64,000 nt of DNA from Elusimicrobiota bacterium. GTDB taxonomy: Bacteria > Elusimicrobiota > Elusimicrobia > FEN-1173. Below the pieces are notes generated by a model. It saw only the letters and a list, made by a program, of their open reading frames with translations. It made no database searches and had not been told where the DNA came from. Position numbers and translations under genes: made by a program. The stretch lies in NCBI GenBank assembly GCA_016788905.1, contig JAEURZ010000011.1, forward strand, positions 1 through 64,000, given 5' to 3'. Below, piece after piece: positions 1-13,666 of this stretch. Positions within the stretch are counted from its first letter, which is position 1; each line of letters opens with the position of its first letter.

Positions 1-42
1 ATGAAATGCTTGGGATACAAAACTCCAAACGAGGTCTTCAAT

Positions 43-1899
43 TCATGGCTTGGTGCAATAGCCGCTTGAATTCACCGACTTCTGAGCTTGATCGGAGCCC
101 AGTCCCGATGCTCCTGCTAGTCGAGGCGAGTTCAAGAAAATTTCTTCTCCAGCGAAAAGTTTTTCCAACGGCAGGGGGTCTCGGGCGAACACGTCCAGAT
201 AATTGTTTTCTTTGGGCACTTCGGTGATTTTGGGTGTGACCACCAGGTAAGACAAATCTTTTTTGCGCATGAGGCTGGCCAACCCGTCCGAATGAAATCC
301 CCCGGCCACCAAGACCGCCGCGCGCGCCTTTTGCGCGAAAAGTTGGGATTTCAAATTTTCAATAAACGCCTCATTGCGGTCCACGGCATTGCGGCAAAAA
401 GCTTCCGCTGGAGTAAGCAGGTCGACAAGCGACACAGGGGGACCCGCGTCTGGCGCCCCGCTGAGGGCCGCGACATCATCGACGATTTTTAGAATATGGC
501 TCCGCTCTTTTTCATACACGGCCCAATCTTCCGGCGTCATGGACTGCGTTGACAGCTTTTCCAAGAGGGCGATCCGCCGGGCAACAGCCACCAATTCTTT
601 TTGCGCGGGGGTGACGGCCAGACGGTCTTCGGTTTCCCTTTCGGCACGGGTCAGCTCGTCCAATAGTTTGTTGCGGTCAATCTTTTCCGCCAGGACGACA
701 TACTCAACGTAGGCGGCCAAGGTTCCGCCCAAGGCAATGGCATGATCGCGGCAAAGGGCTTTTAAAAACCGATGATAATCCCCGTATCCCACCTGTCCAG
801 CCCGGTATTGGAAACTCCGTTGAACCAAAAGGTCCAATTTCTGCTTAGGCAGTTTCCGCGCCAAAACCTCCACCATTTGAAGGCGCTCTTGCTCCACCCG
901 CTTAAAGTCCAACGCATCTTCGGCAACGAGGGCTTTAACAAGCAACCGAAGGTTGGGAAAAGCCCCATTGTTTACCTTTGCGCCGCCCGTAAGGTACCGG
1001 ACATAGGGTCCCAATCCTTCCCGTTGATCCTGATAGGCCAGAAAACGACGGTCAAACTCTTTTAGTTCATTGGAATAGTTCGTTTCTTTTAGCGCGGAAA
1101 CAGACGCCTTGATGTTGGCCAAAACTTTTGTCAATTCCGGTTTCAACTTGTTCGCGTCTTTAAGGGCTTGCACATTGGCCAAATAAAGGTCTTCGTTTTC
1201 AATCCCCCACAAAGTCAGAGGATTGGGAGCGGTGATCCCCGCATACTCCACCCCGCCAATCTTGCCTACTTTCAAAAAATACTCGGCCACTTCGCGCGTA
1301 ACGGCTTCGTTGGGCCAATTTCGGTATGGATCCAGGTTGAAAGGGCCTTGGGCGGCTTCAAGCCCCACCAGGTTTACCCCACGGCTTTCGCTTAAACCTT
1401 GAATGATGGCGGCAATATTCTTTTGGGCCTCTTCGATCCCGTGGGCGTCTTGGACGTGAACAATGAGGGGTGCGTTGGGCTTATTGGCGATGTGAACGTC
1501 GCGGATAGATCCGTATGGAAGGATAAGATTCGCAATCCACCCAGGTGTGTCGCTTGAGGGAAGGGGCAAGTCCAAGGCGTTCCCTGCCGAAAAAGAGCCC
1601 GGCAGCACCAACCCAACCCCGACCGAAGAAACGCTTTGCGGAGCGCCCCAGGTCACCTGCCCGACCTTCGGAAGTTGGGCCAGTATTTGGTATCGATCCG
1701 CCGTTACCCCAATATCAAAAGCCCCCCCCGAAGACGCTCCCGCCGATCTCATTGTCCGGCGAGAGGCATCGCGACGCTCGGCCCAAAAGTTGACTTCGGG
1801 CGCGGACGCAAACAAAACGTTCGTCCCAAAAAAGAGAACCGCCAAAGCCCCCGCTAAAAATTGATTTAGCCGTGAACTTAACATGCAAAAAGTATACAT
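43..1899 (-). CDS. Exported protein of unknown function, possibly ChaN/TraB/Tiki-like fold
   Basis: This 618-residue protein has an N-terminal hydrophobic segment (about residues 10-32) typical of a signal peptide, so it is probably exported. I do not recognise the family with certainty. Residues 148-160 (HVQDAH..., then a Gln), an LEAAQG at 180-185 and a GGFHSDG near 533-539 are spaced like the His/Glu motifs of the ChaN/TraB/EreA/Tiki superfamily, but that is inference from pattern only. The C-terminal segment with GGFH and 'TPLEKLF/LPLEKLF'-type residues is clearly homologous to the first 100 residues of the giant ORF at 3390-11342. The ATG at 1899 has an AAGGTG a few bases upstream; an ATG at 1884 is an alternative start. 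It is transcribed away from the barrel gene at 2101. Confidence 0.75.
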   Translation of the reverse strand: MYTFCMLSSRLNQFLAGALAVLFFGTNVLFASAPEVNFWAERRDASRRTMRSAGASSGGAFDIGVTADRYQILAQLPKVGQVTWGAPQSVSSVGVGLVLPGSFSAGNALDLPLPSSDTPGWIANLILPYGSIRDVHIANKPNAPLIVHVQDAHGIEEAQKNIAAIIQGLSESRGVNLVGLEAAQGPFNLDPYRNWPNEAVTREVAEYFLKVGKIGGVEYAGITAPNPLTLWGIENEDLYLANVQALKDANKLKPELTKVLANIKASVSALKETNYSNELKEFDRRFLAYQDQREGLGPYVRYLTGGAKVNNGAFPNLRLLVKALVAEDALDFKRVEQERLQMVEVLARKLPKQKLDLLVQRSFQYRAGQVGYGDYHRFLKALCRDHAIALGGTLAAYVEYVVLAEKIDRNKLLDELTRAERETEDRLAVTPAQKELVAVARRIALLEKLSTQSMTPEDWAVYEKERSHILKIVDDVAALSGAPDAGPPVSLVDLLTPAEAFCRNAVDRNEAFIENLKSQLFAQKARAAVLVAGGFHSDGLASLMRKKDLSYLVVTPKITEVPKENNYLDVFARDPLPLEKLFAGEEIFLNSPRLAGASGLGSDQAQKSVNSSGYCTKP

Positions 1900-3389: not shown

Positions 3390-6300
3390 CTAGGCCGCCT
3401 GTGCAAGGGCTTGGAAAACCGCAAGGATATCGTTCCACCCCGTGATCCCAACAGGAAAAGCTTTCATATGTTCCAGAAGAATCACCAAAGCATTTTGGGC
3501 CGCCTGCCGGAAAGGATCCCCCTCCCCAAGATTAGATTCATCCAAGCGGAGCGCCGCGGCATGGTAAAGTCGGAACGGAACCCCACGCGCCACAAGACCT
3601 AACCCATCCAGCGCTTCACGAACGAGGGCAAGATCCACTTCTTGAATGGGGGCCTGCTGACCGAGAGTGCGAAAGGCCTTCGGAACCACAATTACTTGAC
3701 CCGCTGGAAGGCTCTCCTGGGAAACATCAGTCACCAAAACAAGGGTCGCGTCTTTCTCCATCCATTTTTTAAGGTTATGAAGACCTTCAGGCGAGAGGTC
3801 CCCCTGGGGGAGGATGACCAAATTCTGACTTTCACCCGAGGAGGCCTCTGGGACAGTGGATGGGACGGACACCCCATGACGCCCTTCCGCATAAACTTCC
3901 GCTCTTTTAATCACCAACTCCCGAAGTTCACCGACACCCAAGGTGATCGGACGGCCTTCAAGATTTTTTAATACGTCCCGGGCAATTTCACGCTGGGGCT
4001 CGGTCAACCCAGACAGGTGGGCGGCCAACCAGTTTTGGTTTTCCCTCCGATGAAGTTTTAAATCGAGAGAGGCGCCGGCCCATGTGGCGAACCCAATCAT
4101 GGCCGGAACAAATTCCGTTGGAACCGCCTGGGCCACCCCAAACAGAAATCCGCCCCATGCCCCCATCTTCAAAAACCAGACAAACGCTTTTCCCACCGAC
4201 TCGGCCCCGGTGGCCGCCACAGAAACCAGCGAAGCACCCTTGAACCCATAGGTTCCCGCGCGGTGGAAATATCCCAGCAAACCGGCAAGAAGCGAGACAC
4301 TGGCCACCCACCAAAGGCTCGTTCCGTAGAGAAGGTTCGCACCGACCGCCAAACCGATCGACACCACAAAGGGGACGGTTTCCCAGGGAGCTTTCCGTAA
4401 CATATTGTCCAAGGGCCCCTGGCTCCAAGGCATACGGCTCCAGAACCAGGCCAAAGTGGAGGGTGTTTCAAAGGATAACACAGAAATATCTTGTTCCATC
4501 AATTGGTCAGCCCTCACGTGAACCGCCCTGGCAATTCGCTGAAGTTCAACTTCGGTCAATGGGTTCGAAACCGTTTCATTAAATCCCTTTATCAAAGAAC
4601 GAATAAACCTAATGTCACGGATCCCATAAAGGGCCACTAAAATATCGTTCACCCGGGGACCAATCGTGCAGTGTTCAAAATCCAAGACCCCCGTGACCTT
4701 TCCATCAGAAGCGAAGAAGACGTTCCCCCGGTGCAAATCGTTGTGAAGGGGGACCAAAGGCCCCAGCCGAGGGTCCTCCGGCTCAACCCTTTTTAAGTTA
4801 CTCGGAAGAGCAAAAGAAGCAGAAACGTTCTGGATTCGTCCAATCATCTGGCCCAGAGAATAATAATGGTCGACCGTGGCCTCATTTTCTTTGACATGGG
4901 TTCCGTTTTCCAACAGAGACTCCAGAATAAAGTGTTGACCACTCAAGAGAAGAAGCGTAGGGTCATTGTCCCTCCTTTTAGCGAGACGTTCTTGGATTTT
5001 TGGCACGGGAATCCCGTTTTCAAATAGGTGCTGTTGCCATGCCACCCCAAACCGAGCCTGACGAACCTCTTCCCCTGCTCGGTGAAGTATAAATTTCCCC
5101 TTATCGGTTGTGACCATGAGGGGCGGGCCGATCGACCGGGAATAGGAAATATCCAGAAGTGGGTCCACCGCCAGAACATCTAACATCCCATATTCCGTTT
5201 CCAAAAGGGCCAATAAGAACCCCATGCGCGTATTTAACGCGTAATCATTCAGGTTTTTCCTAATCGTATGGGGAGATACCCAACGAAAACGTCCATTCTT
5301 AGGGAGTGAAGAAAGACGATCACCCTTAACACCAACATAGGCCACTGTCACAGAATGTTTTTCAGGAGAAGCGCCCGGAATTTCGCGGCGATAGGCAAAA
5401 ACAGGCCTATAATTATCTGGATCTTTGGATCCCACACTTGCGATCTCCTCTGAATCGACTACAAGGCCATAGTCTTCCGATAAACTTTCGGAAATAGTGG
5501 TGGAATTAGCGCCCCCCCTTTCCACTTCCACACGAGGGAATTCCAATTGCCCCTCATGGTTTTGAGAAACCAGCCATTTGCCCCCCGGCTTTTCAACAAT
5601 GACAAGAGCGGAAAATATTTCCTTCCCCTTATCTTTGGATTGAAGAGGAACCAATTGACGGCGTTCTCCCTTGGTCGATATGTCGGGGGCGGCGATATTA
5701 CGATGGAATTCGGTCTCGGATCGAAAGAAAAACAAATCATAAAAGTCGATGACCAAATGGACAAGAATGGCGGGGATAACGGAACCGGGAAGGAGGTACA
5801 AGGAAAAGACACCAAACGTCTTCCACAAATAGGAACGTGAAGGTGGATCCCTCCCCGCATTATTGTTCACCTTTCTTGCCGAAACAAAATGGAGCCCCGC
5901 CATAAGATAAAAAACAATGAGGAGCAAAGAAACCGAGACAGGCTCCATCCCCAGAAAAGCGAAAACATCGGTTCCCATGGGACCAGGAGCTTCGCCCAAA
6001 GCTCGTAAACCAACGAGGAACGGTATTTCCAGCAACAAACCCCAAAACCCCAGGGAGCGGGATCTCTGTTCATTAAGTCCTAATCGCTTGGCGATCCAAT
6101 AGCCGAGGGAAGCGGGTTGGGCGTCATGGGTCGAATCCAATCCACCCCGAGAGTCTGACGCCTTCCAAGAAAACCGACGGAATACCGAATCTTGAAAGTT
6201 TTCTGGAAAAACAAATCCAGACAAAAAATCTCCGATTTTATGTGAACTAATGGAACCGTGGGTTTCATCGTTAGTAAAATTCGATTTAGGACCTAACGCC

Positions 6301-9300
6301 AAAACGGCCATGATCATGTCGGGACGGCCAGTGGTGTGGGGCAAAAATCGCACATAGACCCGACTATCCCCAAGACGACCGCGGTAAACCCGTGGATATT
6401 GGGGTTTTAATTCAACCCACGATCCAGGCATAAGGCCGGAAGAGAGGCCCGCCCTCAACCGTCGAATACTTTCCATCACGCGAGAACCATGTTCGTTCCA
6501 TTGGGTTTCAGATACTTCTGGAGATAAATACAATTCATACCCTAAAGACTTTTCTGGGCTCTTTCCCGGGAGCACCCACAAAGCCAGGGCATCGGAAAGT
6601 GTATCCGGAAAACTTTTCCCAAGCTTCTCCTTCAAGTTTTCCATGATCGCTCGGTCTGTGTCCAACCAATCCGTCTCACTCCGCCTACGCAACATGTCAA
6701 CTTCCTGTTCTTCTAATCCAAACAACGTCGCATTTTCCAAAATATCAGTAATTGTAAAGGGCCCCTGGGTGGCCAGGAGGGAACGGGCACTGGATAAATA
6801 TTCATCCAATTCAATGACCACACCAGCGGGGAGGGCGTTTAAGAGGTCGCGGTCTGCCTCCAAGTTCAGTAATTCCTGAATAGCGCCTCGGACGTCCTCC
6901 GGGTTAATATGAGATTGGGTTTCCTCCAGGCGGTTATGGAAAATGGCCATGACCGTATCCCCATAAATCGATTCAACCAACCCCATGATGTCGCCCACTT
7001 CCTTGTTATCCGCATGCTTAGAACTTTCTTCCCTTAACCGCACCATTTCTCCAGTAAACGCTTTCAGCCGGTCGGGCGAATAGTCCATCACCAAATGATC
7101 CAACCCATCCGCAAGGGAATACAAACGCTTAACAAATTCCGCGGCCCGTATCTCCTCTTCATGACCCAGCGTACTTAAAACAATTTTGGCCCTTTCCAAC
7201 AACAAGCGCGTTTTAGGGTTCACGGATTGACGGAAACGAGCCAAAGGTTTTTTAACACCCGTAACCCCGTTTTTGAGATGCAAACGCCCTTTTCCCAGTG
7301 GAATGTTGGTATACAATTCATCAATCTCATCGAGCGTGGGAACCCGTGCATTTAAATGATTAAAACGTTCCTCCGGGGAAAGCATCAATCGATCCCGAAT
7401 CGAAACGAGTGTGGAAAGGAATCGATCAAGATCAGTCCCCCTTTCCTGAAGGAGATTTTGGAGCAACAGCGATTCTCGCCGCGCGTCATGCTCCGTTTCC
7501 TGGGAGGGTCCCTTGGGTATGCCCAATTCGTCAGCCATGGCATTGATCAAAAACTTACTGGCCATCACTCGCCTGGGATGCCCCGAAAGACCCGTTTGAG
7601 CCGTTCGCATCATTTCAACAATGTTCCATACAGCGACACCAAAGATAAATTTTTTCCTGTTGCTGTTCAGCAAAGCACCATCGCCTTCTTTTGATTCAAT
7701 CTTCGTTTCGTGAGAAACCATAAATCGCATCAATTCAATATGGCTATCCAAAATAGACAGGATCTCATGGGCCACCCCATCCAACAGGAATGACAAATCT
7801 TCATCTTCAAGATCAATATCAAATTCTCCCAATAAAGGTCTTAACTCCTCTCGCCATTTCCAAGAAGGGGATACGACCGCTTTGACAATATCTTCTTCCG
7901 TCAGTTTTTCAAGGGGTATTTTCATTTTCCGAGATGCATAAAGGGACAACTTGCTATAAGCCAATCGGTCCCGAATTAATTTTTCTAAAATCGCCTCAAC
8001 AAATCCGATCGGGGTGCTGTGTGATTCTTTAAAAAGAGCCACCCATTTTTGTTCCAACACAGATTTATGCGTAAACTTTGCAATATCCCTCCAAACGGAC
8101 AGGGCATAGGCCTTTGTCCCCACGGGATCCACAAAGACAAACCCGGGCAATTCGATGGAAGAAACACCGGTTGTCATTAGTTTTTCGGAGACCCCGGAAG
8201 AGGCCCACCCCACCCACAGGGTTCCTCCCATATAGGAAAGTCGTTGCCATCCCTCCCGATCGATCATCGGCACTTGACCCGTTTTTCCAACGACACCCAT
8301 GGCCCAACCCATGGGGATATAGATGAACAGAAAAACATTCCTCAGGAAACCGGACAAGGCATAAATATCATCCAACTGGTCATTGTGGATGTCCTTGTAG
8401 AGCTCCGCGAAATGAGGACTTGTTTTTCGGGCCAGCACCAACAACTCCCCCCGGATTGATCTTGACCTCTCCGCCAGTTCAGCACTAAATGGTTTCCCAT
8501 CCATTCCCGACTTGAGGGTTTTTTGAGCGTTTTGAATATATTTTGTCACTAACTTATGAAGCACGACCATATCCCCTATTTTTACTGCAAAGGACTTGGT
8601 CGCCTCCTTATCAAACGGCCCTTTACCTTTTTCCGCCAGGGTGGCCGTGGCCCACCCATGGGAAAGTGCTGTGACATTATAAATTGAATGGATTCCCACA
8701 TTGAGACCGTAACCAAACAAGAGTCCCCCCGCGTAGGCAAGGGCTTTCAAACCCCATCCGAACCCAATGGGGTCCAACCAAAAAAGAACCAAACTGGGGC
8801 CCAGGAAAGACAACGCCAATACGAATCCAACAAATAAAATCTGCCGTTTTTCGCTGGTCGTTCGTCCTCGATGGGATTCACTAAAGACATAACCACTCAT
8901 CAACGCCCATATTATTGTGCCGGGTATTATCCATCCCCCCCCACCTATCAGACCTGTAATGAGGACGAGGGTCCCCATAAGCGTGATGGCATTTTGATGG
9001 CGAACCTCGGCAACAACAGGTTCACCACTCTTCTCATCTTCCCCGACCAAGCGCCGGACAAACCAATCAGACAAGACCTGTACCACGCGTTGAGGTAATC
9101 CTGGTATCTGATAGATAACTTCCCATAAGGGCGCCTGACGAACGGTATAGGCCCCATAGGAAAGATTATCCCATCCCCACTTTATTAAAGCTCGCTCATT
9201 CCCAATGGAAGCAAATCTTTTACCCTTTATCTGTTTAGCCAACCCACCTTCACCCACATCCAGTTGATACAATTCAAGGGCAGATTGCACTCCCTCCCAC

Positions 9301-11342
9301 AATTTCGACTCAAGCCCTTCCTGATCATCCCCCAACTTTCCCAGAGGAGTCAAAGGGGCCACGGAGGCCACCGCCTCCGACACAAACCGCTTGATATCCT
9401 CTTTTGATAAGGAGGCCACTGCCGGATACAACCACCGCATGTTTTCAATGAGTGCATTTCGGTGAAACAGAGGCTCTCGCATTAATCGATTGGTGTCCCA
9501 TCCACCAAAAAAGTCGTCTCGAGAAAACCCATTTCGGTAACGTTTTTCCATGACCCCAAAACCTGTCTCGGAATTCGTCATAAAGTAAAATGATTTTTCA
9601 AAATCGATAAAGACAGGTCGTCTGGGAAGGATCTCTCCCTTTTCATTGACGTGAAGTAAAACATTCCCAAGATTAAAATCAGTTAAATCAACAATCATGG
9701 CCGCGAGTTTTGACCCCTCAAGGATATTCCGGATGGATGAAGGGAAGATTTTTTCTCCGATGGCACTGGGTCTGAAATAAACGGGAGAGATTAATGTGGA
9801 TCGGATATATTCCGAGACATTCATTGTTCCATCCACCCACGAGGTAATAACATACCCTGTTTCCCCCGGAGGAACACCTGTGTCCTCAACATTAAACCCC
9901 AGATATTGGAACACCTTCAAACTCAACATTTCCGGCAATGATCGGGCACCGAGATATTTCACAACAAATTTCTTTTTCTGATCCTGCGATTTATATAAAT
10001 ACGGAGTGGACCCCGTTCTCATAAATCCATTCTCGTGTAAGGGACCCACTGTTATTAATTGGGAACGCAAAGGCAATGCCTCTCGAGGCTTTTGTTCTGA
10101 ACTTTCCTGATCTTCAAAAGATTGAGGGCCCGCCCGTTGATAGTAACCACTGCTTAAATAAAGACTGGCAAGGAGAAATCGGCCCACATCCGGAAGTTCA
10201 ATGGGATGTTGGGCGAGGATCTCTTGCAACTCTTCAACGTTAAAAACGTCCGAGGTCCCTGTCTGCTTAATCCACAAGGAAAGTTCCCTTCCTGTTAGCC
10301 TTCCATTTCCATTGTGTGCAGATAATTCCAAGAATTGATCACGAACTTGTTGAAAAACACGCGACGCTTCGGCCAACTCCCCCGCTTCCACCAATGATCT
10401 TCCTTTCTCAGTTAAAAGGGCCAGAGGATTCGATTCAGGGGGGTCGGCCATGGCGGGGGCGTTTGGAAATAGATGTTGTTGGGCTAAATGGGTAACCGCA
10501 TACACACTGAACCATGTCAAAGGAAACCACCACCAACCAAACGACACTCCAAAAACAATTCCGAACAAGAACCCCACGTCCGTGGCCTGTATGATCCGTT
10601 CTATTCCTAGCAATCGTAACGCCAAAACATGCATGTTTTTGTTCCCAACCCTATGGGATTGGAAAACAAAACGAGTCAATTGGTGCGACACTCGAGCGCT
10701 GGCAAAATAAACAAATTCCGTGGCCACGGCTTGCAGCCGTTTACTCAACGGAGGCAAGGGGGATCGATCGATTTCACTTTCAATATCGACAGTAAGATTT
10801 CCTTCCTGGGAGATAACGGGGACCTCCCGACCATTCATTTCAAGAAAGAGAACCCCATTTTCATATCGGAGTTGTTTAACAGCTAACTCAGGCGACGCCC
10901 GTAATTTTTCCAGGTCGGTTAAGACCTCTGAGGAAAGGGTTCCTTTCCCCAACCAAAGGGCCCGTGCCCAAGCCATGAACCCAATACGTGAACGGGCCTC
11001 GGGAAAAAGGGGAGGCTGGGCCAAGGTAAGTTTTTCGCCCAAAAACAATTTTTCAAGTGGCGTTTTTTCTTGGGTAAAAATACTTAAGGAACCGGCCCCT
11101 TCTGTATCGGCCTTCGTGACCTTGGGCGTAAAAGAGACAACGGTGACCCCTTTCTCAGTTAATCGGCGGATCACCCCATCGCCGTGAAACCCGCCCGCGA
11201 CCAAAACCGCCACCGCCTTTCTGTTCTTCGGAAGTTCCCCCATTCCCACAATCAATTGGCGAACCATGGTCCTATCCCGGGTTTTAGCCTCTTGATAAAA
11301 GGTTTCAAAAGGGGCGAGGTTCCCTTCAAACACCCGCGGCAT
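3390..11342 (-). CDS. Giant multidomain membrane protein, 5'-truncated next to an insertion sequence
   Basis: The ORF encodes 2650 residues. Residues 1-100 match the C-terminal segment of the protein at 43-1899, including GGFHGDG near 50-56. A kinase-like fold follows at about 430-660 (DFNLGNVLL, then IDFE). Hydrophobic clusters near 240-280, 780-930 and 1000-1060 suggest multi-pass membrane topology. A hydrophobic block at about 1750-1875 is followed by a Nudix-like domain (about 1890-2045; the Nudix box is degenerate). An aminoglycoside-phosphotransferase-like domain spans about 2060-2290, with HNDLHRGNVFF and LDFEHC. More membrane segments lie at about 2300-2430, and a soluble C-terminus follows. 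The first ATG (11342) has no signal peptide, and the frame stays open upstream into the IS border at 11421. The true 5' portion, roughly 480 residues by comparison with the paralogue, is missing. It may be a decaying remnant, yet the remaining 8 kb carries no internal stop. Confidence 0.75.
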   Translation of the reverse strand: MPRVFEGNLAPFETFYQEAKTRDRTMVRQLIVGMGELPKNRKAVAVLVAGGFHGDGVIRRLTEKGVTVVSFTPKVTKADTEGAGSLSIFTQEKTPLEKLFLGEKLTLAQPPLFPEARSRIGFMAWARALWLGKGTLSSEVLTDLEKLRASPELAVKQLRYENGVLFLEMNGREVPVISQEGNLTVDIESEIDRSPLPPLSKRLQAVATEFVYFASARVSHQLTRFVFQSHRVGNKNMHVLALRLLGIERIIQATDVGFLFGIVFGVSFGWWWFPLTWFSVYAVTHLAQQHLFPNAPAMADPPESNPLALLTEKGRSLVEAGELAEASRVFQQVRDQFLELSAHNGNGRLTGRELSLWIKQTGTSDVFNVEELQEILAQHPIELPDVGRFLLASLYLSSGYYQRAGPQSFEDQESSEQKPREALPLRSQLITVGPLHENGFMRTGSTPYLYKSQDQKKKFVVKYLGARSLPEMLSLKVFQYLGFNVEDTGVPPGETGYVITSWVDGTMNVSEYIRSTLISPVYFRPSAIGEKIFPSSIRNILEGSKLAAMIVDLTDFNLGNVLLHVNEKGEILPRRPVFIDFEKSFYFMTNSETGFGVMEKRYRNGFSRDDFFGGWDTNRLMREPLFHRNALIENMRWLYPAVASLSKEDIKRFVSEAVASVAPLTPLGKLGDDQEGLESKLWEGVQSALELYQLDVGEGGLAKQIKGKRFASIGNERALIKWGWDNLSYGAYTVRQAPLWEVIYQIPGLPQRVVQVLSDWFVRRLVGEDEKSGEPVVAEVRHQNAITLMGTLVLITGLIGGGGWIIPGTIIWALMSGYVFSESHRGRTTSEKRQILFVGFVLALSFLGPSLVLFWLDPIGFGWGLKALAYAGGLLFGYGLNVGIHSIYNVTALSHGWATATLAEKGKGPFDKEATKSFAVKIGDMVVLHKLVTKYIQNAQKTLKSGMDGKPFSAELAERSRSIRGELLVLARKTSPHFAELYKDIHNDQLDDIYALSGFLRNVFLFIYIPMGWAMGVVGKTGQVPMIDREGWQRLSYMGGTLWVGWASSGVSEKLMTTGVSSIELPGFVFVDPVGTKAYALSVWRDIAKFTHKSVLEQKWVALFKESHSTPIGFVEAILEKLIRDRLAYSKLSLYASRKMKIPLEKLTEEDIVKAVVSPSWKWREELRPLLGEFDIDLEDEDLSFLLDGVAHEILSILDSHIELMRFMVSHETKIESKEGDGALLNSNRKKFIFGVAVWNIVEMMRTAQTGLSGHPRRVMASKFLINAMADELGIPKGPSQETEHDARRESLLLQNLLQERGTDLDRFLSTLVSIRDRLMLSPEERFNHLNARVPTLDEIDELYTNIPLGKGRLHLKNGVTGVKKPLARFRQSVNPKTRLLLERAKIVLSTLGHEEEIRAAEFVKRLYSLADGLDHLVMDYSPDRLKAFTGEMVRLREESSKHADNKEVGDIMGLVESIYGDTVMAIFHNRLEETQSHINPEDVRGAIQELLNLEADRDLLNALPAGVVIELDEYLSSARSLLATQGPFTITDILENATLFGLEEQEVDMLRRRSETDWLDTDRAIMENLKEKLGKSFPDTLSDALALWVLPGKSPEKSLGYELYLSPEVSETQWNEHGSRVMESIRRLRAGLSSGLMPGSWVELKPQYPRVYRGRLGDSRVYVRFLPHTTGRPDMIMAVLALGPKSNFTNDETHGSISSHKIGDFLSGFVFPENFQDSVFRRFSWKASDSRGGLDSTHDAQPASLGYWIAKRLGLNEQRSRSLGFWGLLLEIPFLVGLRALGEAPGPMGTDVFAFLGMEPVSVSLLLIVFYLMAGLHFVSARKVNNNAGRDPPSRSYLWKTFGVFSLYLLPGSVIPAILVHLVIDFYDLFFFRSETEFHRNIAAPDISTKGERRQLVPLQSKDKGKEIFSALVIVEKPGGKWLVSQNHEGQLEFPRVEVERGGANSTTISESLSEDYGLVVDSEEIASVGSKDPDNYRPVFAYRREIPGASPEKHSVTVAYVGVKGDRLSSLPKNGRFRWVSPHTIRKNLNDYALNTRMGFLLALLETEYGMLDVLAVDPLLDISYSRSIGPPLMVTTDKGKFILHRAGEEVRQARFGVAWQQHLFENGIPVPKIQERLAKRRDNDPTLLLLSGQHFILESLLENGTHVKENEATVDHYYSLGQMIGRIQNVSASFALPSNLKRVEPEDPRLGPLVPLHNDLHRGNVFFASDGKVTGVLDFEHCTIGPRVNDILVALYGIRDIRFIRSLIKGFNETVSNPLTEVELQRIARAVHVRADQLMEQDISVLSFETPSTLAWFWSRMPWSQGPLDNMLRKAPWETVPFVVSIGLAVGANLLYGTSLWWVASVSLLAGLLGYFHRAGTYGFKGASLVSVAATGAESVGKAFVWFLKMGAWGGFLFGVAQAVPTEFVPAMIGFATWAGASLDLKLHRRENQNWLAAHLSGLTEPQREIARDVLKNLEGRPITLGVGELRELVIKRAEVYAEGRHGVSVPSTVPEASSGESQNLVILPQGDLSPEGLHNLKKWMEKDATLVLVTDVSQESLPAGQVIVVPKAFRTLGQQAPIQEVDLALVREALDGLGLVARGVPFRLYHAAALRLDESNLGEGDPFRQAAQNALVILLEHMKAFPVGITGWNDILAVFQALAQAA

Positions 11343-11382
11343 GGACGAATACTCGTGTCTCTTTAGCCCTCTAAAGTGTTTG

Positions 11383-11406
11383 CCCTCTCCCGCTCGCGGG
11401 AGAGGG
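11383..11406. repeat. REP-like palindrome beside the insertion sequence
   Basis: A perfect 10-bp stem (CCCTCTCCCG / CGGGAGAGGG) with loop CTCG is followed by GATGGGGTG. Read on the minus strand it is CACCCCATCCC followed by the palindrome, the layout of the widespread REP-type elements. A related CACCTCATCCC-plus-palindrome unit occurs at 57534-57564. It lies between the broken end of the giant gene and the left end of the IS. Confidence 0.6.
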
Positions 11407-11420
11407 ATGGGGTGGGTATA

Positions 11421-11466
11421 AACCGGGTACAGTGGTAACAGAATAGACCGGGCACATAGGTAACAG
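11421..11466 (+). repeat. Left terminal inverted repeat of the IS
   Basis: This 46-bp end consists of two 21-bp units, 11421-11441 and 11446-11466, matching each other at 17 of 21 positions (ACCGGG...GGTAACAG). It pairs with 12657-12702 in inverted orientation. The doubled unit suggests two transposase binding sites per end. Confidence 0.75.
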
Positions 11467-11495
11467 GTACATTAAAGGGCAAGGAGGAACACACT

Positions 11496-12680
11496 ATGCC
11501 CTGGAGAGAGACCTGCCCTATGGAAGAACGAGTGAAATTTATTGGTGATTGGCTGAAGGACGAGGAAACCGTGGCGGACTTGTGTCTTATCTACGGAATC
11601 AGCCGAAAAACGGGATACAAGTGGATTGAGCGGTATGAGAGGCATGGCGTGGACGGTTTGAGGGAAATGAGTCGAAGCCCACACGACCATCCCAACCAGA
11701 CGCCCACGGTAACGGAAGAAAAGTTGGTGCGGTTTCGGCATCAGCATCCGCATTGGGGGCCGCTCAAACTGATTCATCGGCTGAAGATACTTCAGCCGAA
11801 TGAAAACTGGCCGGCGGTGAGCACGGCAGGGGCAATTCTAAAGCGTCACGGTCTGACGAAACCCCCACGTCACCGGAAACGGACACCGGCCTTCGCGGGG
11901 AATGTGCGCGAGATTCACCGACCCAACGACGTGTGGGGTGCGGATTTCAAGGGATGGTTTCGCACACGGGACGGAGGGCGGGTCGATCCACTGACGATTA
12001 CGGATCTGGCAAGCCGATATTTGATCGAGTGCCGGGCGCTGATATCGACGAAGGGCAACGACGTTCGTCCCTGGTTTGAGTTGGCTTTTCGAGAATTCGG
12101 TTTGCCCTGGGCGATTCGAACAGATAATGGGCCACCGTTTGCCAGCGTTGGATTGGGCGGCTTGTCGCGGTTGTCTGTATGGTGGATTCGGCTGGGGATA
12201 ATTCCGGAGCGCATTCGGCCTGGTCATCCGGAAGAAAACGGATGTCACGAGCGAATGCATCGAAGTTTGGCGGAGGGGACAGTGAACCCACCGGAGAAAA
12301 ACGTCATGGCGCAACAAAGATCGTTTACATTTTTCCGAAGGGAGTTCAACGAGGAGCGGCCCCATTCATCCTTGGAAATGCAGACGCCTGCCCAGATTTA
12401 CCGACCGTCGGGCAGATCCTATCCGGAAACCCTTCCGGCGTTGGAATACGGAAATGGTATTGAAGTCCGGCGCGTGAGATCTAACGGCGAAATCAAGTGG
12501 GGCGGCGGCTTTCTATTTCTAAGCGAAGCGTTGATCGGGGAGCAAGTGGGGTTGCGTCGCGTTGACAACGATCGATGGGCAATTCATTTTGGCCCAGTTC
12601 CTCTGGCGGAATATGATTCATCGAATAAACGATTACAACGCTGCGATCCGGTAAAACTGTTACCCATGTACCCGGTCTAA
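11496..12680 (+). CDS. IS481-family transposase
   Basis: This 394-residue transposase has an N-terminal helix-turn-helix (about residues 10-60, GISRKTGYKWIERY) and a linker with HWGP. An rve-type DDE catalytic core follows, with Asp in WGADFKG (150), Asp in RTDNG (210) and Glu in HPEENG (246/247), then the usual FNEERPHSSL and QTPAQIY motifs. All three catalytic acidic residues and a full-length reading frame are present, so it should be active. AAGGAGG stands about 9 bases before the ATG. The stop codon lies inside the right inverted repeat. Confidence 0.93.
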   Translation: MPWRETCPMEERVKFIGDWLKDEETVADLCLIYGISRKTGYKWIERYERHGVDGLREMSRSPHDHPNQTPTVTEEKLVRFRHQHPHWGPLKLIHRLKILQPNENWPAVSTAGAILKRHGLTKPPRHRKRTPAFAGNVREIHRPNDVWGADFKGWFRTRDGGRVDPLTITDLASRYLIECRALISTKGNDVRPWFELAFREFGLPWAIRTDNGPPFASVGLGGLSRLSVWWIRLGIIPERIRPGHPEENGCHERMHRSLAEGTVNPPEKNVMAQQRSFTFFRREFNEERPHSSLEMQTPAQIYRPSGRSYPETLPALEYGNGIEVRRVRSNGEIKWGGGFLFLSEALIGEQVGLRRVDNDRWAIHFGPVPLAEYDSSNKRLQRCDPVKLLPMYPV

Positions 12681-12702
12681 AGTGTTACCTATCCCCCGGG
12701 TT
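12657..12702 (-). repeat. Right terminal inverted repeat of the IS
   Basis: The reverse complement of this 46-bp end aligns without gaps to 11421-11466. Inner unit 12657-12677 and outer unit 12682-12702 repeat the same GTTACC...CCGG pattern at 25-bp spacing. It overlaps the transposase stop codon. Confidence 0.75.
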
Positions 12703-12715
12703 GCACACAAGGAAG

Positions 12716-12749
12716 GTCTTTCCCTATTAGGAAAGAGGGGACTTTTTTT
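12716..12749 (+). terminator. Hairpin plus seven T residues upstream of the metal-binding protein gene
   Basis: TCTTTCC at 12717-12723 and GGAAAGA at 12730-12736 form a perfect 7-bp stem with loop CTATTA. They are followed by GGGGAC and a run of seven T at 12743-12749. The ribosome-binding sequence AGGAG and ATG follow at once. It resembles an intrinsic terminator placed inside a leader, either a stop for transcription coming out of the IS or an attenuator of the transporter genes. The stem-to-T-run gap of six bases weakens the terminator reading. Confidence 0.4.
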
Positions 12750-12760
12750 AGGAGAATCTT

Positions 12761-13666
12761 ATGAAAATGATTGGAAGCGTTTTGGGCATTATTCTTTTTG
12801 CGTTGGTTGGGTTCGCCGCGCCGTTAAAGGTGGTGACGACGACACCGGATTTAGCCGATTTGGCTCGGCAGGTGGGAGGCGATCGGGTTAAAGTGGAATG
12901 CCTTTCTCGGGGGAATCAGGACCCGCATTTTGTGGAAGCCAAACCCTCACTAATTCTTAAAGTGAGGGAGGCGGATCTCTTTATTGAGACCGGTTTGGAT
13001 TTGGAGATTGGGTGGGCTCCTTCGCTGGTCCAAGGTTCACGGAACCTTAAGGTTCAGCGGGGCGCCCTCGGGTTTTTGGATGCGTCCACGTTGATTCATC
13101 CTTTGGAAATCCCTTCCACGCTCAGTCGTTCTGAGGGGGACGTGCACCCCGGAGGGAACCCCCATTACTTGGGAAACCCCCGGAATGCCATTTTTGTGAT
13201 CAAAGGGATGGTAGAGAAATTGTCAGCCTTGGATCCTCCGGGAAGTCCTGTGTTCGCAACGAACGCCAAGAATTACATTCAACAGTTGAACGCTAAAATG
13301 TCGGATTGGGAAAAACAAATGGAAAGTGTTCGGGGCACTCTGTTTGTGAGTTATCATAAAAACCTGGTTTATTTTGCGGAATATTTCGGTTTTTCCCCCG
13401 TTGGGGAAATTGAGCCGAAACCTGGGATTCCACCTACACCAAGACATACGGCGGACTTGATTGCCCTTATCAAAGGCCAGTCGGTCCCCTTGATTTTAAC
13501 CATGACTCACTTCGAAAGGAGAACTCCTGACTCTTTGGCAGGTGCCACGGGGGCCCGAGTGGTCACCATCGCTCTGGTTCCAGAAGCTGTGCCCGAGGCC
13601 AGGGACTATATCTCGGCCTTCGATTACAATGTCAAGGCGCTTCTCAACGCTTTGGAGAAAAAATGA
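12761..13666 (+). CDS. Zinc/manganese ABC transporter substrate-binding protein (ZnuA-like)
   Basis: This is a 301-residue periplasmic protein of the cluster A-I metal-binding family (ZnuA/MntA/PsaA). It has an N-terminal signal peptide (about 1-20), then KVVTTTPDLADLARQVGGD, the classic start of the fold. Candidate metal ligands are His56 in DPHF, the His residues in GDVHPGGNPHY and His in SYHKN. There is no long His/Asp-rich loop, so the metal (Zn, Mn or Fe) cannot be told from sequence. TAGGAG precedes the ATG. It overlaps the ATPase gene by 4 nt, and the permease gene follows, giving the standard three-gene importer. The IS ends only 58 bp upstream, so its native promoter may be lost. Confidence 0.88.
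   Translation: MKMIGSVLGIILFALVGFAAPLKVVTTTPDLADLARQVGGDRVKVECLSRGNQDPHFVEAKPSLILKVREADLFIETGLDLEIGWAPSLVQGSRNLKVQRGALGFLDASTLIHPLEIPSTLSRSEGDVHPGGNPHYLGNPRNAIFVIKGMVEKLSALDPPGSPVFATNAKNYIQQLNAKMSDWEKQMESVRGTLFVSYHKNLVYFAEYFGFSPVGEIEPKPGIPPTPRHTADLIALIKGQSVPLILTMTHFERRTPDSLAGATGARVVTIALVPEAVPEARDYISAFDYNVKALLNALEKK

Follow-up and report, generated by a model that had tools for sequence, protein, structure and literature searches.

An IS481-family element, a split giant gene and a probable assembly misjoin in an Elusimicrobiota draft genome

The giant gene, its neighbours and its module family

The window, that is, the whole 64,000-nucleotide stretch analysed here, begins at the first base of contig C11 of an Elusimicrobiota draft genome. 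It contains a 2650-residue giant open reading frame (ORF) on the minus strand, upstream of which lie a REP-like palindrome, an IS481-family insertion sequence (IS) and the first gene of a zinc-transport operon (Table 1).

Table 1. Features at the giant-gene locus and at the start of the window
Feature	Position	Strand	Remarks
3' end of putative IS30-family element	1–77	+	Common to the edges of C7, C20, C36 and C38 and to the internal C4 copy
Start of another giant gene: N-terminal module (ChaN/Tiki-like), interrupted by the putative IS30-family element	43–1899	−	Likely continued by a 2390-codon frame at the start of C28
Giant ORF	3390–11342	−	2650 aa; 2650 open codons
C-terminal part of giant gene (~2,674 codons); ORF call starts at 11342	3390–11414	−	Last ~100 residues of N-terminal module; APH-like kinase domain near C-terminus
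REP-like palindrome CCTCTCCCGCTCGCGGGAGAGG	11384–11405	+	In frame in the linker of the giant gene
IS481-family insertion sequence	11415–12707	+	One of three genomic copies; the sole fully assembled copy
Left terminal inverted repeat	11421–11466	+	46 nt, 76% complementary to 12657–12702
IS481-type DDE transposase	11496–12680	+	394 aa; rve, rve_3, LZ_Tnp_IS481
Right terminal inverted repeat	12657–12702	+	Pairs with 11421–11466
Right flank with znuA (12761–13666)	12708–13666	+	Natural upstream neighbour: porin gene G000:C15:77172–78416

The giant ORF begins with a stretch that aligns to residues 494–594 of the protein encoded at 43–1899 with 36–38% identity over ~100 residues (E = 6e-13), and the segments GGFHGDG and PLEKLF are common to both; judged from the sequences, the homology is real, in agreement with the sequence-only reading, which had proposed this alignment. 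As that reading also noted, the ~480 preceding residues are missing: the alignment starts at residue 494 of what proves to be a conserved module, and the giant ORF is without the module residues before about 465–494. Upstream of the called start, the frame stays open through the palindrome and into the IS, giving an open frame of 2693 codons.

One exported N-terminal module of ~590 residues is common to about 26 genes of this genome and is followed by mostly unrelated C-terminal regions; the APH-like kinase domain belongs to the giant ORF's own C-terminal part. Residues D151, H153, E181, G533-G534 and H536 of the module are invariant, and a variable linker, in which REPs can lie in frame, spans residues 465–494. 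Similarity of the module to PF04187 (ChaN/Tiki superfamily) is weak but recurrent, appearing at E ≤ 1 for eight of 19 members (best, 1.7e-5); P0002 gave no PF04187 match at E ≤ 1. Its predicted model has a mean pLDDT of 71.8, with a confident core and low values at both ends, and a fold search with this model returned weak matches to EreC and HopBA1 and none at E ≤ 0.001. The giant protein had no relative in a scan of named genomes; with the module alignment, the scan reached mostly Elusimicrobia MAGs and a few Omnitrophota, so that the source is probably an uncultured Elusimicrobiota bacterium.

The IS resembles other members of its family in having a single DDE transposase with HTH domains, imperfect terminal inverted repeats and a length of about 1.29 kb. 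The transposase exceeds the curated Pfam cut-offs for PF13011 (LZ_Tnp_IS481, the IS481 leucine-zipper model), PF00665 (rve) and PF13683 (rve_3). The earlier reading was right that an IS is present and placed its left end at 11421; the boundaries, set here by the sequence that all flanks of the element share, lie nearer 11415 and 12707.

Three copies of the element and their flanks

When the window's own genome (2.51 Mb in 78 contigs, 99.85% complete) was searched for the IS, four more contig edges proved to carry its ends: C12 and C19 start with a right end, and C15 and C27 finish with a left end. The genome thus holds three copies, with three left flanks (C11L, on the window's contig, C15 and C27) and three right flanks (C11R, C12 and C19). 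At C12:78-1565 (minus strand), the N-terminal half of a giant gene, with an apparent signal peptide, runs into the right end of the IS, and a second such half, likewise with an apparent signal peptide, does so on C19 (minus strand). A second giant ORF emerges from the IS on C27 without an N-terminus. C15 ends in a gene (G000:C15:77172–78416) that we read as an outer-membrane porin from its sequence and its place before znuA; a Pfam search of this gene gave no match.

With ~26 genes beginning with the same exported module, the pairing of N- and C-terminal halves could be tested by relatedness. The N-terminal half on C12 (C12N) and the C-terminal part in the window (C11C) have their nearest paralogs in common, namely, genes on C20, C3, C1 and C7, and the halves on C19 (C19N) and C27 (C27C) likewise share theirs. 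Across 22 intact paralogs, the Spearman correlations of the identity profiles are 0.82 for C12N with C11C and 0.57 for C19N with C27C, whereas the swapped pairs give −0.41 and −0.45; over ~94 loci, mostly from other genomes, the corresponding values are 0.75 and 0.29, as against −0.21 and −0.48. Taken alone, this statistic has limited power, in that a gene's own partner ranked first for only three of the 22 intact genes because close paralogs tie; the pairing, therefore, rests on the contrast in sign between true and swapped pairs and on a template, the intact paralog C19:17643-19106, which has 85% identity to C19N as well as to C27C over the parts compared. The linker of this paralog also displays the empty site: no bases have been lost, and a 3-bp GAG is repeated. 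C27 and C19 carry the two parts of another giant gene that this IS has interrupted. In a relative (G009, locus L042), a stretch resembling C12N is followed, ~13 bp later, by one resembling C11C within a single frame of 3,084 codons. The upstream part is, therefore, present in intact paralogs and relatives alike, as expected from the earlier suggestion that the gene normally carries an N-terminal module.

The assignment of two giant-gene pairs leaves C15 with C11R as the third. Of 30 relatives with both genes, 29 have the porin homolog immediately before znuA in the same orientation, and joining C15 to C11R would restore this order with a gap of 110 bp, compared with 7–285 bp in the relatives, and with a target duplication, CAAG. 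This duplication fits C15 with C11R and not C11L with C11R; the two latter flanks, joined in the window, share none. The metal-transporter operon that the earlier reading placed beyond the IS, where znuA lies, adjoins the giant gene in this contig alone. For the other pairs, the duplications are GAG (C27/C19) and a mismatched GTG/GAG (C11L/C12), so that the target duplications of this element are short or unclear.

Origin of the junction in the window

All four of the other flanks show exact 77-bp overlaps (C12/C11R, C19/C12, C15/C11L and C27/C15), and further 77-bp forks occur at other contig edges, including C7/C36, C32/C33/C8, C10/C13 and C27/C3; contig edges of C41 and beyond, which carry identical, apparently masked sequence, were excluded from this comparison. 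Such forks are the signature of de Bruijn assembly with k = 77, and it follows from their presence both at the flanks and elsewhere that the assembly threaded an unresolved repeat with three entries and three exits.

Our preferred explanation, which we consider probable, is that the giant gene has been split by the IS without any deletion and that the join of left and right flanks in the window is an assembly misjoin. The IS481-family element would have inserted beside a REP palindrome lying in frame in the linker (module residues ~465–494) of a giant gene of some 3,170 codons for an exported protein, and also in the second giant gene (C27/C19) and between the zinc-porin gene and znuA (C15/C11R). 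A short-read assembly with k = 77 would then have merged the three copies into a single repeat node, through which C11 was threaded from the left flank of the giant gene to the right flank of the zinc operon. The real order in the cell would most likely be C12-IS-C11L for the giant gene and C15-IS-C11R for the zinc operon; nothing would have been deleted, and the window junction would be chimeric. Two observations count against a misjoin: the C12/C11L pair gives GTG and GAG instead of a clean target duplication, and something made the assembler choose the path from C11L through the IS to C11R. The sequence-only reading had rightly named misassembly as the thing to exclude, and its placing of an IS at the break of the giant gene holds. 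The event does appear recent, one of the two possibilities that it had offered, and we infer that the split gene is inactive.

The main rival is a real rearrangement: two IS copies that recombined by homology, through an inversion for instance, would give the same joint; the left flank of the giant gene would then truly adjoin the zinc operon, and a reciprocal C15-IS-C12 joint would exist. All four flanks are still present, as they would be after a reciprocal exchange, the window joint is without a target duplication, and IS481 activity has been observed together with large rearrangements (PMC11708052). Against this, an unresolved three-by-three repeat in a k = 77 graph yields the joint without any biology, and the zinc operon has the C15 arrangement in relatives. 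We, therefore, regard recombination as unlikely and infer that the join is an assembly error.

The deletion proposed by the sequence-only reading, in which the IS removed the 5' ~480 codons together with everything up to the metal operon, is how the contig reads as assembled. It is rejected because the assembly contains, beside IS ends, both of the pieces said to be lost: the N-terminal half at C12:78-1565 abuts the right end of the same IS, and the gene upstream of the operon, the porin, runs up to the IS at the end of C15; we give it next to no credence. Equally improbable is a giant protein that natively begins at Met 11342 and never had the module, since, despite its 2650 open codons, the ORF starts in the middle of that conserved module and the intact paralogs and relatives, including the 3,084-codon frame, carry the upstream part.

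REP palindromes and a second element in the giant-gene family

The palindrome CCTCTCCCGCTCGCGGGAGAGG, which the earlier reading had correctly noted between the giant ORF and the IS, was found at 28 genomic places when up to two mismatches were allowed, and 13 of these are exact matches; its single place in the window compares with none in 100 shuffles and is, therefore, not due to chance. All three IS481 copies, and there are only three, lie at such a palindrome, in the same orientation and at a spacing of 9–10 bp, a feature that sets them apart from the rest of the family. For random insertion, we estimate the probability of finding three out of three copies at REPs (28 sites in 2.5 Mb) to be far below one in a million. 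The flanks of a distant relative of the IS in genome G239 contain no such palindrome. With three copies, the association is a lead, not a law.

Y1-type transposases are the kind associated with REPs. A Y1-transposase gene with a DnaA-C-like domain (L006:1645-2631, plus strand) lies next to the giant gene's C12 half, in divergent orientation.

Insertion at REP palindromes is also known for IS1397, IS621, ISPsy8 and ISRm22, and a survey lists the REP-targeting families as IS3, IS110, IS4, IS256 and IS5, with no mention of IS481 (PMC1525189). Unlike those elements, the present one inserted next to, not within, the palindrome, and of the three REPs, two are intragenic. We tentatively suggest, at somewhat short of an even chance, that this IS481-family element inserts site- and orientation-specifically beside REPs, and that giant genes become split by it as a result of the in-frame spread of REPs into the linker of their common module, which would make REPs the weak point of the giant-gene family.

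A further family member has been cut by a different element. The gene at 43–1899, whose exported product the sequence-only reading used for comparison, does not encode an intact, stand-alone protein: it is interrupted at the contig edge by an element that we assign to the IS30 family from its sequence, and the last ~11 residues of its product are IS sequence. Positions 1–77 of the window are a 77-bp fork common to four other contig edges; the transposase (322 residues) is complete on C4. Where C28 begins, a 2390-codon frame that lacks an N-terminus and matches an M48 peptidase leaves the other end of a copy of this element, and a 3-bp target repeat, GAC, matches between the two flanks. The two parts are likely to be one split giant gene, for which there is less evidence than for the IS481 pairs. 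The only internal copy of the element (L267, G000:C4:97500-101500) is interrupted by a stretch of Ns with the same 77 bp on either side, and the GAT of its left flank agrees better with the right flank on C20 than with the TCC of its own right flank; C4 may, thus, be misjoined there too. Another contig, G000:C37 (7,975 bp), carries a copy of the N-terminal module and has a start and end that overlap by exactly 77 bp; it would represent a circular element or a tandem repeat.

The family resembles the giant genes of Elusimicrobiota and Omnitrophota described previously (PMC11573180, PMC10066038) in its very long ORFs, few recognised domains and occurrence in related lineages; it differs from them in that ~26 of its genes share an exported N-terminal module weakly similar to the ChaN/Tiki superfamily. 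The present analysis removes a false story of truncation and fusion, and it illustrates that false gene neighbourhoods can arise from collapsed insertion sequences in the draft genomes of uncultured bacteria. At least three giant-gene proteins will be wrongly cut in any annotation of this genome. The giant-gene family with its common exported module, and the IS481-family element linked to REPs, merit study in their own right.
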